From assembly GCA_003003615.1 (NCBI GenBank), contig PVWD01000006.1, positions 1 through 61,626 of the forward strand: 61,626 bases of DNA, in the 5' to 3' direction. The position numbers and the translations under genes were made by a program. This DNA is from a filamentous cyanobacterium CCP2 (GTDB lineage: Bacteria > Cyanobacteriota > Cyanobacteriia > Elainellales > Elainellaceae). This document shows, in pieces, positions 40,489 to 44,552 of this stretch (positions are counted from its first letter, which is position 1; each line of letters starts with the position of its first letter). The notes beneath the pieces are model-generated. The model did no database searches. It was not told the origin of the DNA and was given only the letters and a program-made list of their open reading frames with translations.

Positions 40489-42930
40489 ATGAATGAATTG
40501 GAGGAGGGCGCTGGCTTTAATGAAACAGTCTTGTGTAAGCTTGGTGCTGACGAGAAGGTTCGGCAGGACTTCTGGCAGTGGAGCATTAAGCACACTTTAC
40601 TGGTCAATGAGCTGCTAATTCAGGTAAGCCAGCACAAAGATTTTGAGCAATGGAAAAACAGTGGGACGATAACCAAAAAGGCTGTTGTAGAGCTTGGTAA
40701 ACCATTTAAAGATCCAGAACGGGAGCAATTTATAGAGCTACCTTATCGGTTTCATACCTCAGCGACTCTATTGGTTTTCTATATCTACCAATCTTGGCTT
40801 AAATTGCACCAGAAACACTCCTACAAGCTTCAGGGGAAGAAGAAGTGGTTGGCGGTGTTGGATAACGATTTAGAGGTGGCAAAGCATACTGATTTCAGCC
40901 CTCAGATGATTCAAACTCAGGCATCTGAAATTCTGTCTCAAGCTTCCGCACAACATGAGAAATCTCAGCAGAAGCGAAAAAAGAAGTCCTCAAAAAAGTC
41001 AGGCGAGACATCAAAAAGCCATCTTGCGATCATGACAATCCTGTTCGACAGGCACGAGCAGTCGCAAGATCTTCTAGAACGCCGTGCGATCGCGCACTTA
41101 TTGAAGAATGGTTGCCAGGTTAACGATGCAGAAGAAGATCTAGAGGCATTGAAACTGCGCCTTGAGAAAAAGCGTATTCAAATCGCACGGCTCGAAAAGC
41201 AATTAGAGCGCCGACTGCCGGATGGTCGCGATCCAACAGGTGAACGGTTTGCCAGCAACCTTGCTCAGGCAATCGCCTTTGCCGACCATTTAACCTTTGT
41301 GCCTGCAAAGTTTTGGATAAACTGGTATCAAGTATTGCAGCGAAATCCAAACGATGAGTCGGATCTAGTCATTCCTTTTTTAGGCTATGTCTATCATCAG
41401 CAGGCGGGTGATGCTGGATTTGATGCATGGGAACAAGGAGATTCTGAGCGGGCAGCACTTGTCTCAACCCTTTACGAAACTTTGCCTTATCCTATTCTTT
41501 TCGGTAGTGCTGGTGACGTGTACTGGTCATTAAAACAGGTTGACCCAAATCCAGGGACGACTCGACAGAAACAGCAGTCGCATCGGACTCCAAAACGTCG
41601 TAGAAAACCCAAACATAAACAAAAGGTACAGGAGCGGCTTTGCGTGCGCTTTAAGGGAGAAGAATTAAAAAATCATCACTTTGGGGTCTATTGCGATCGT
41701 CGTCAGTTGCCTGTGTTTAAGCAATTTCTAACTGATCGGGAGGTGCAGAAGCAACGGAAGGACACCGAAAAGTTTATGGGCGGAATTTTTACCCTTCGCT
41801 CTGCACGTCTCGTCTGGAAGGAGGACACAGAGCGATTACAAAGGAAACGTGCCTCTACCACTTCGTTGCTTTGGCTCAAGTTTCTCTTTGCGATGCAGCG
41901 AGAGGAAACGGTCACGGATAAGGAACTGGATTCGTGGATCATCAGCTTCTTGTGTATCAATACCATTTTTCCCTGGCAATCTCACCGTCTCTATCTTCAC
42001 TGCACGATCGATTCTCGGTTGTTAACCGCTGAGGGAACAAAAGAGGTAATCGCACAAAAGACGGCTGCCACCCAGCAATATCTTGAGCAATTCAAGCCGG
42101 AAACTGCAACACCCAAACCGCAAGCAGTAGAACGAGTAGAGGAAGAGCGACAAACACCGCAAGCTAGGGGAGGAACAACGGTTAAAAAGAAAGAAACCAC
42201 CCTGGCTCGCTCTAAAAATCCTCCTCCTGCTCGTCCCAGTCGTCTGCTGTATAAAGGGCGAAGCGATATTGCAGCAGTTGTGGTTGTCAGCAGGTTTGCC
42301 ATTGTTGCCGTTGCCATAGTCAACACGCAAACCCAGGAGATACTTGAGTTTCAGAAGATAAAAGATTTATTGACCGAACACCGTTCTGATGTCCTTGAGG
42401 AGCGCCTTAAGAAACATCAAGGCATGCTCAAAGGCGGACGAAGCCTTGAACAACTTCAATTGCAGCAGTATCGATTGGTGAAACGATGGCGCAAACATCG
42501 CAAGAAAAACTTGACCCAACGCCAGGAGGAGCAGAAACGTGGATTATACAAGCGCAGTAATCAGGAGTCCAACCTGGCACAGTATCTCAATCGTTTGTTG
42601 GCTAAGAGGATTGTGCAACTGTGCCAGACCTATCAAGTAGGGATGATCGTTTTACCTGAATTAGGAAATATCGGGGAAAACTTTGAATGCGAGATTCAGG
42701 CAAAAGCCAGGCAGAAGTTTCCAGGTGACAATGTCCAACTTCAAAAACAATATCTCAAGGAGCTAAGAATGCGTATGCATCGTTGGAATTACAAGAATCT
42801 TCTTCACGCGATTCGCCAGTATGCGACTCCTGCCAGAATTCCAGTGACAACTCGGTGGCAACCCAAAGAAGGTGCCTTGCGAGACAAGGCGGCAGTGATG
42901 GCGAGAGCGGTGCCCCCTGGAGTCCCGTGA
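40489..42930 (+). CDS. cas12k: Cas12k (type V-K), unusually long, orphan
   Basis: RNA-guided target-binding protein of V-K CRISPR transposons. It aligns from the start with Cas12k (ELLIQVSQHKDFEQWK, IELPYRFHTSATLLVFYIYQSW, LLKNGCQVNDAEEDLE, RRLPDGRDPTGERF, YCDRRQLPVFKQFL, FTLRSARLVWKE, RLLTAEGTKEV, RPSRLLYKGRSDI, MIVLPELGNIGE, RMHRWNYKNLL, RDKA at 798-801). RuvC-I lacks the Asp (AAVVVVSRFAIVAVAIV), as normal for this nuclease-dead family. Length 813 aa against 639 for ShCas12k. Extra segments lie about residues 255-330, a basic stretch (RTPKRRRKPKHKQK) near 365, and about 60 residues after FTLRSARLVWKE. The C-terminus ends soon after RDKAAVMARA. TAGGAGA precedes the ATG. tnsB, tnsC and tniQ are absent nearby. 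Confidence 0.9.
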   Translation: MNELEEGAGFNETVLCKLGADEKVRQDFWQWSIKHTLLVNELLIQVSQHKDFEQWKNSGTITKKAVVELGKPFKDPEREQFIELPYRFHTSATLLVFYIYQSWLKLHQKHSYKLQGKKKWLAVLDNDLEVAKHTDFSPQMIQTQASEILSQASAQHEKSQQKRKKKSSKKSGETSKSHLAIMTILFDRHEQSQDLLERRAIAHLLKNGCQVNDAEEDLEALKLRLEKKRIQIARLEKQLERRLPDGRDPTGERFASNLAQAIAFADHLTFVPAKFWINWYQVLQRNPNDESDLVIPFLGYVYHQQAGDAGFDAWEQGDSERAALVSTLYETLPYPILFGSAGDVYWSLKQVDPNPGTTRQKQQSHRTPKRRRKPKHKQKVQERLCVRFKGEELKNHHFGVYCDRRQLPVFKQFLTDREVQKQRKDTEKFMGGIFTLRSARLVWKEDTERLQRKRASTTSLLWLKFLFAMQREETVTDKELDSWIISFLCINTIFPWQSHRLYLHCTIDSRLLTAEGTKEVIAQKTAATQQYLEQFKPETATPKPQAVERVEEERQTPQARGGTTVKKKETTLARSKNPPPARPSRLLYKGRSDIAAVVVVSRFAIVAVAIVNTQTQEILEFQKIKDLLTEHRSDVLEERLKKHQGMLKGGRSLEQLQLQQYRLVKRWRKHRKKNLTQRQEEQKRGLYKRSNQESNLAQYLNRLLAKRIVQLCQTYQVGMIVLPELGNIGENFECEIQAKARQKFPGDNVQLQKQYLKELRMRMHRWNYKNLLHAIRQYATPARIPVTTRWQPKEGALRDKAAVMARAVPPGVP

Positions 42931-43049
42931 CATAACAGAGTCTTTGAAGCTTAACGATTTAGTTTTATCAAGTTTTGACGCGCTGCTATAGCAGCTAGAT
43001 GGGTCAGTTTCACTGCTTTCCGTCCCAGGTAGTTGTCCGCTTCCGTCGA

Positions 43050-43265
43050 GTCGTGTGATGTAGGTTTCCTGCTTGATTCAGGAAACAACACGAACAAGAC
43101 ACGAGGTGAATTGCGTCAGCATCTCAGGAAGCAGTTTTTAGGAATAGACAGGCTCTATTTCTAAGGATACAGAGATACGTGTGATGCCGACAACTGCATT
43201 GTGTTGTTGCAGTCGGTGGATAGCTACCATACGCCCCAAGCATGGGTTGAGCCTACCCCTTTTCT
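43050..43265 (+). ncRNA. candidate V-K tracrRNA
   Basis: Located between cas12k and the array, as in other V-K loci. Near the 3' end there is a long hairpin (CCGAC...GTCGG, 43187-43216), a GGATAGCTACC segment, a small CCCAAGCATGGG hairpin and then the anti-repeat AGCCTACCC (43250-43258) before a T run. The same order (hairpin, GGCTACT-like segment, CCCC hairpin, ACCC anti-repeat) is found at the 3' end of the ShCAST tracrRNA. The 5' boundary is a guess based on the ~215-nt length of known examples. Confidence 0.65.
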
Positions 43266-43458
43266 TCAATCTGGCAAACCGCAGCAAGGTCAACTTTGCT
43301 GGGAGGTTGGTCAAAGATTGAACCCCTTGCCACTCAAGGTTTTCTGCATTAGCAATTCAGATGAGTTCGGATGCTAGCTGATTGCTACTAAGGAAATTTA
43401 TTAGGATTGCCAATACCGTTCTACGGAACCAGGGCAGGCAAGGCTTTCAAGTCCGGGA

Positions 43459-43728: not shown

Positions 43729-44090
43729 TTTTCCTCAAAAGTTTGTCGATCGGTTCAGTGCAGCCGTACTACCTACGGTAAGCGTTATGGGCTGACTTGA
43801 GATGGCGTACTACTAAAAATTGCAGAGTGTGGGTGGGATGTTGGGCATCCTACCCACTTTTAGTTTTTGGGCATCCGGTGACGGCTGCCAATGCTTGTGC
43901 TACTGGTTTGCGAATCGCGTCATTTCCTGGGTCCGATAAGTAGTCATCGTGTATGCATGTTACAGAAAGGGGATTGCGTCTCTCCTATTTCTTATTCAGC
44001 ACAGCAAATGCGACGGCAGCGCAAAATAGCGTGACGGCTGACAAATGTAGTCTGCTCAGTTATGACCTCTGTGTGCTCGGCAATGTACAA
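43729..44090. other. spacer region between homing unit and transposon end
   Basis: Contains the terminator-like hairpin at 43829-43868 and otherwise no gene. A short plus-strand frame at 43953-44204 is partly made of the 20-bp repeats and is not protein-like. Confidence 0.5.
43829..43868 (+). terminator. Rho-independent terminator after the V-K array
   Basis: A 12-bp stem GTGGGTGGGATG / CATCCTACCCAC with one G-T wobble and a TTGGG loop, followed by TTTTAGTTTTT. It lies 100 bp after the homing spacer and probably ends the pre-crRNA transcript. Confidence 0.75.
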
Positions 44091-44387
44091 GTACGCCACG
44101 AATTTGAAAACAAGAAAAATCTGCGCCATGAATTTGAAAGTGTAATCTTTGAAGAAAATCCGCGCCACGAATTTGAAGAATTTTCGGTGCCTTCCGAAGG
44201 CTGAAAGCAATAACTTGCGGAGGTTTTAGTGGGTAATTAAAAAATTTGTTAGTATTGAACGAACGTGCGCCACGAATTTGAAAACGAGAGAAAGCCGCGC
44301 CATGAATTTGAAAGGCTTAAAATTTGGGTAAAACTGGGATATGCGCCACGAATTTGAAAGCCGCGCCATTTTTCGTGAAAACGTACA
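44091..44387 (+). repeat. candidate CAST right end: TnsB-type direct repeats
   Basis: Six ~20-bp copies of GCGCCACGAATTTGAAA or GCGCCATGAATTTGAAA, all in one orientation: 44091-44110, 44121-44140, 44160-44179, 44265-44284, 44295-44314 and 44341-44360. A seventh degenerate copy at 44361-44380 is followed by GTACA at 44383-44387; read inward this end is TGTACGTTTTCACG. V-K transposons end with TGTA and carry several such 20-bp sites with a GCGnCA..AATTTG pattern. Identification as TnsB sites is inference. No matching left end was seen. Confidence 0.65.
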
Positions 44388-44480
44388 CGTGACTTTAATC
44401 TCTCCTGCAATTTCCCTGCAAGAAGTCACTGAATTCCTTCAGCAGCTTGTTTCGATGCCATCAGTCGCTATCGTACAAAA

Positions 44481-44552
44481 AGGCGGCACCCAGATTCGAA
44501 CTGGGGAGTGGAGGTTTTGCAGACCTCTGCCTTACCACTTGGCTATGCCGCC
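44481..44552 (-). tRNA. tRNA-Cys (GCA)
   Basis: A full cloverleaf on the minus strand with acceptor stem GGCGGCA/TGCCGCC, anticodon stem GAGGT/ACCTC around CTGCAAA (anticodon GCA) and T loop TTCGAAT. Discriminator T; no encoded CCA. The homing spacer at 43712 matches its anticodon-arm region (44516-44532), and the minus-strand bases before that match are GGTA, a permitted V-K PAM. Confidence 0.95.

Follow-up and report, generated by a model that had tools for sequence, protein, structure and literature searches.

What kind of element is a type V-K CRISPR-associated transposon (CAST) locus that has its CRISPR parts but no genes for transposition? The question is raised by positions 40489–44552 of the window, the whole 61,626-base stretch of the filamentous cyanobacterium CCP2 analyzed here, where cas12k, a trans-activating CRISPR RNA (tracrRNA), a CRISPR array and a homing spacer lie next to a tRNA gene and where tnsB, tnsC and tniQ are missing. 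A first-pass annotation had called this locus an orphan and had offered three accounts of it: Tns proteins acting in trans, a decayed CAST, or a very large cargo with the tns genes beyond the window. The last of these is borne out. With a probability of roughly 0.96, the locus forms the CRISPR-side part of a single complete type V-K CAST, ordinary in kind but unusually large (~53 kb), that was cut in two by the draft assembly. The window is the entire contig C454 of a 528-contig draft of a 6.95-Mb genome, and its left edge therefore marks a break in the assembly. Positions 1–44387 hold the right-hand, CRISPR-side part of the CAST, and contig C135 (8251–16452) supplies the other 8.2 kb, which include the tnsB-side end and tnsB-tnsC-tniQ; together with a gap of ~0.4 kb, these lengths (8.2 + 0.4 + 44.4) give the size of ~53 kb.

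The tns genes and the second transposon end

The absence of tnsB, tnsC and tniQ from the window was correctly described: none was found among the main open reading frames (ORFs) searched, and genome-wide searches for Mu-transpos_C and TniQ returned matches on other contigs only. On C135, a transposon end with the same repeats as the window's end, inverted, is followed by tnsB (8679–10643), tnsC (10622–11587) and tniQ (11547–12086), all reading inward. The three genes fit V-K-specific PADLOC models and the ShTnsB, ShTnsC and ShTniQ structures, D-D-E-like motifs are visible in TnsB, and cas12k, tnsB, tnsC and tniQ are all open frames with normal domain content. The ORF list holds no tnsA-sized frame between the C135 end and tnsB, and no tnsA profile search was made. 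Published naming uses 'LE' for the end on the CRISPR/tRNA side and 'RE' for that on the tnsB side (PMC9938897); by that convention, the 'left end' sought by the first-pass annotation is the RE of the literature.

Four features join the two contigs. The CRISPR-side end comprises six TnsB-type repeats (GCGCCACGAATTTGAAA-type sites, 44093–44359, forward strand) and closes with the terminal base at 44387 (...CGTACA); its outermost 45 nt are identical to those of the C135 end at 43 of 45 positions. A 30-nt motif taken from the ends has exactly two occurrences in the genome, one on each contig and oppositely oriented, and its reversed control does not occur at all. The 5 bp following the window's end, CGTGA (44388–44392), are identical to the 5 bp ahead of the tnsB-side end (C135 8246–8250), as expected of a target-site duplication; such agreement between unrelated ends would arise by chance about once in a thousand. 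We also found the corresponding empty site in a relative, G006. When the left flank on C135 was joined to the right flank in the window and one CGTGA was removed, the resulting query gave one continuous 813-bp alignment at 87% identity, and G006 has a single copy of the target 5-mer.

The inner junction is linked by a gene pair. The ORF truncated by the start of the window (3–416, forward strand) is the second of two genes, the first of which is truncated at the end of C135. Both match neighboring genes that keep this order and strand, with ~0.4 kb between them, in G006, G016, G017, G059, G104, G218, G235 and others. C135 (16,471 bp) terminates in Nextera adapter sequence (CTGTCTCTTATACACATCT, 16453–16471), which suggests a technical break. 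The gene and RNA parts, the paired ends, the duplication, the empty site and the linkage between contigs are shown by these sequences. The first-pass annotation had proposed a genome search for TnsB, TnsC, TniQ and a matching end, and had reasoned that finding them immediately beyond position 1 would make this an ordinary large CAST; C135 is where they were found, and they lie beyond position 1 once an unsequenced gap of ~0.4 kb is allowed for.

Alternative explanations

Some observations weigh against a single element. The junction of C135 and C454 is not bridged by any one read or contig, and the estimate of ~0.4 kb for the gap comes from relatives. On its right side, the empty-site alignment is only about 80 bp long, because the window's own flank stops at 44467, and the gene in the left flank has relatives elsewhere in other genomes. 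Nested elements may also lie within the 44 kb. A further alternative is that C135 and C454 each contribute one end from a pair of CASTs of the same family, nested or side by side. CASTs do accumulate at tRNA-Cys, and stacked end fragments are present there in G017 and G023; however, this genome has only one matching end of each kind, and one duplication and one empty site account for both. We consider two elements very improbable.

The two accounts that keep the locus free of its own tns genes are slightly more improbable still. An orphan element could in principle borrow TnsB, TnsC and TniQ, since the genome contains other V-K tns sets on C58 and C316 and a remnant on C482. Yet the sole end in the genome that matches the window's directly adjoins the tnsB-tnsC-tniQ of C135, the C58, C316, C148 and C482 stretches contain no site within 3 mismatches of the repeat, and C135 is tied to the window's insertion by the matching duplication and the empty site. 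We give equally little credence to a decayed CAST that has lost its tns genes, with C135 as an unrelated element. This genome does contain decayed CASTs, since C148 has a cas12k pseudogene and C316 has partial frames, but here the cas12k and tns frames are open with normal domains, D-D-E-like motifs are visible in TnsB, and the window has its ends, duplication and flank in common with C135. The prediction that cognate tns genes and a second end would be absent failed. The locus is therefore neither an orphan nor a remnant in our assessment, and a single large CAST accounts for it.

CRISPR-side machinery

The components named in the first-pass annotation are all present. The cas12k gene (40489–42930, forward strand, as are the parts that follow) is an open frame for a long-form protein of 813 aa that scores 807 bits against the NCBIfam model V_Cas12k (NF038191) and also matches PADLOC Cas12k and ShCas12k structures. 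The predicted tracrRNA region, with its anti-repeat (42975–43455, boundaries approximate), is homologous to those of four other V-K loci, with which it shares helices in an alignment and consensus fold. Next come the V-K array of three 37-nt repeats with spacers (43459–43690) and a truncated repeat with a 17-nt homing (anchor) spacer, AGGCAGAAGTCTGCAAA (about 43700–43728). The homing spacer is identical at 16 of 17 nt to tRNA-Cys(GCA) (44481–44552, reverse strand; protospacer 44532–44516), with a GTA protospacer adjacent motif (PAM) adjoining at 44535–44533. None of the array spacers gave a credible match to plasmids, and none matched outside the array in the examined genome stretches when as many as 4 mismatches were allowed within the first 20 nt. 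Insertion guided by an array spacer, which we also considered, found no support.

The element reads, in order, tnsB-side end, tnsB, tnsC, tniQ, ~45 kb of cargo, cas12k, tracrRNA, array, homing unit, CRISPR-side end and tRNA-Cys. By analogy with ShCAST, Cas12k, CRISPR RNA and tracrRNA would mark the target, with the short homing spacer matching tRNA-Cys; TniQ and TnsC would relay this signal; and TnsB, acting on the repeats of both ends, would insert the element with a 5-bp duplication. We infer that the CAST is active and uses its guides in this manner.

Upstream of cas12k, at 38088–39821 and 39972–40373, are genes for a protein that fits no known family and for a small acidic protein. A comparable pair is present in a second CAST (L072, 13102–14955 and 15481–15717); the larger protein spans 577–617 aa across the two CASTs, both of which are at tRNA-Cys. 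No CvkR- or Arc-type regulator was recognized upstream of cas12k in these two elements. The 577-aa protein was set aside as a candidate CAST regulator; its relatives are mostly distant from cas12k.

The insertion site at tRNA-Cys

The distance from the PAM to the transposon end is 145 nt, outside the typical V-K range. Published V-K distances are 46–82 nt with a single exception of 147 nt (PMC9938897), which might be this element or a relative. The same measurement gave 59, 59, 60, 66 and 72 nt in C316, C58, G017, G124 and G053, respectively. This distance is a typical rather than strictly defining V-K feature, and it is a property of this insertion site rather than of the machinery.

The 80 additional bp that separate the end from the usual point of insertion are the start of an M20-type peptidase gene, which is cut off after 26 codons (44389–44467, forward strand). 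This target flank is continuous with the left flank of C135 in G006, and a reading of it as an unknown gene was rejected, as it is the 5′ end of the M20 peptidase gene. The gene is complete about 1 kb from tRNA-Cys in G050 and a pseudogene in G006. In the window, the fragment stops at 44467, ~65 nt from the PAM, which is the expected V-K insertion point. There it meets CTATCGTACA (44468–44477), 10 nt that resemble CAST ends at tRNA-Cys in other genomes and that are tentatively read as what remains of an earlier CAST end at this site. Plausibly, a deletion removed an older CAST at tRNA-Cys along with most of the peptidase gene, whereas the present element occupies the start codon of that gene. 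The order of these events is tentative, and the homing spacer may or may not have guided this particular insertion.

Beside tRNA-Cys in G017 (L073) and G023 (L052), several CAST-like end sequences stand head to tail. Such stacking suggests repeated homing to one site.

Cargo

The cargo contains a type III-B CRISPR-Cas locus (23807–33893, forward strand) with cas10/cmr2, cmr3, cmr4, cmr5, cmr6, two Csx1-like CARF-HEPN genes and cas1. We call this locus complete, though no gene was identified as cmr1. It is preceded by a gene for a CARF/WYL regulator of the III-B locus (22109–23353, reverse strand) and followed by an associated CRISPR array of about 37 repeats (GTCCCCACTCGCTGGGGAAACTAATTGAATGGAAAC; 34383–37200, forward strand, end approximate). 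In a survey of Tn7-like cargo, just two transposons were listed with type III systems, both of them in Proteobacteria (Benler et al. 2021, PMC8649781), and we found no report of a type III system in a V-K CAST in a partial search of the literature. The element resembles those Tn7-like carriers in holding a complete type III system with cas10 as cargo, whereas the carrier here is a cyanobacterial V-K CAST.

Two large caspase-domain proteins of 1,431 and 1,173 aa are encoded upstream (7366–15686, reverse strand). The cargo also holds mobile elements. A group II intron with domains V–VI and an ORF for a reverse transcriptase/maturase/HNH protein (1218–2993, reverse strand) adjoins a tRNA-His gene (1133–1209), and a second group II intron with a reverse transcriptase is located at 18101–19877 (forward strand). 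Insertion sequence transposase genes of the rve, ISL3 and DDE types (3629–6737) and of the DUF772 and DDE_Tnp_1_6 types (16230–17893, forward strand) mark insertions in the cargo.

A tyrosine recombinase beside tniQ

Convergent with tniQ and 25 bp from it, C135 carries an intact tyrosine recombinase gene (12111–13100, reverse strand) whose product has the expected R, K, H-x-x-R, H and Y motifs. Relatives adjoin tniQ in a CAST of G023 (L137) and lie a few kb from tniQ in G053; others are close to cas12k in G030, in G133 and at another locus of G023, and G017 has one ~10 kb from cas12k. The choice of stretches to inspect was in part guided by the presence of cas12k, many relatives are found outside CASTs, and the C58 and C316 CASTs have none. 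For these reasons, we treat the link between recombinase and CAST as a lead rather than a demonstrated association. A 2024 review describes V-K CASTs as having neither TnsA nor a resolvase system, with their native solution unknown (PMC11406308). It is unlikely, although conceivable, that the C135 recombinase is a resolvase that separates the cointegrates of TnsA-less V-K transposition; its position next to tniQ makes it a testable candidate for how V-K cointegrates are resolved.

Comparison with other V-K elements

The layout agrees with that of ShCAST, AcCAST and AnCAST, in which tnsB-tnsC-tniQ is at one end and cas12k, tracrRNA, array, truncated homing unit and tRNA are at the other, with a GTN PAM, a 5-bp duplication and inverted end repeats. 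The element differs from them in its long, 813-aa Cas12k and its 145-nt PAM-to-end distance, and at ~53 kb it contrasts with the 24,963 nt of AnCAST (PMC9938897). Other CASTs with long Cas12k (C58, G124, G017, G053, G030 and G023; frames of 773–873 aa) have the same layout by a tRNA where examined. Unlike the element described here, they carry other end repeats where these were examined (C58, G053, G017 and G124), and some have other target tRNAs. The large size has a probable parallel in the single-contig genome G053, where cas12k adjoins tRNA-Cys and, in the stretches examined, the nearest tnsB-tnsC-tniQ is ~50–55 kb upstream in the expected orientation.

Other V-K loci occur in the same genome: an apparently complete CAST at tRNA-Ala (C58), a CAST with a shorter cas12k frame at tRNA-Val (C316), the cas12k pseudogene near tRNA-Thr/Tyr (C148), and tnsB/tniQ matches with no cas12k in the stretch searched (C482). 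Among the contigs of further genomes, a first scan by Cas12k found no relatives, and a second scan found the end motif in two cyanobacterial drafts. One of these, FACHB-471 (L106), carries a sister CAST in which ~18.6 kb of other DNA lies between the tnsB-side end and the gene for a 90% identical TnsB; no clean intact sister element was therefore obtained.

Implications

Our analysis removes a false lead, as a V-K system that lacks tns genes need not be postulated to explain this locus. Instead, a natural V-K CAST of ~53 kb would transport an entire III-B immune system from site to site, a case relevant to the amount of DNA that such elements move and to the spread of immune systems in cyanobacteria.

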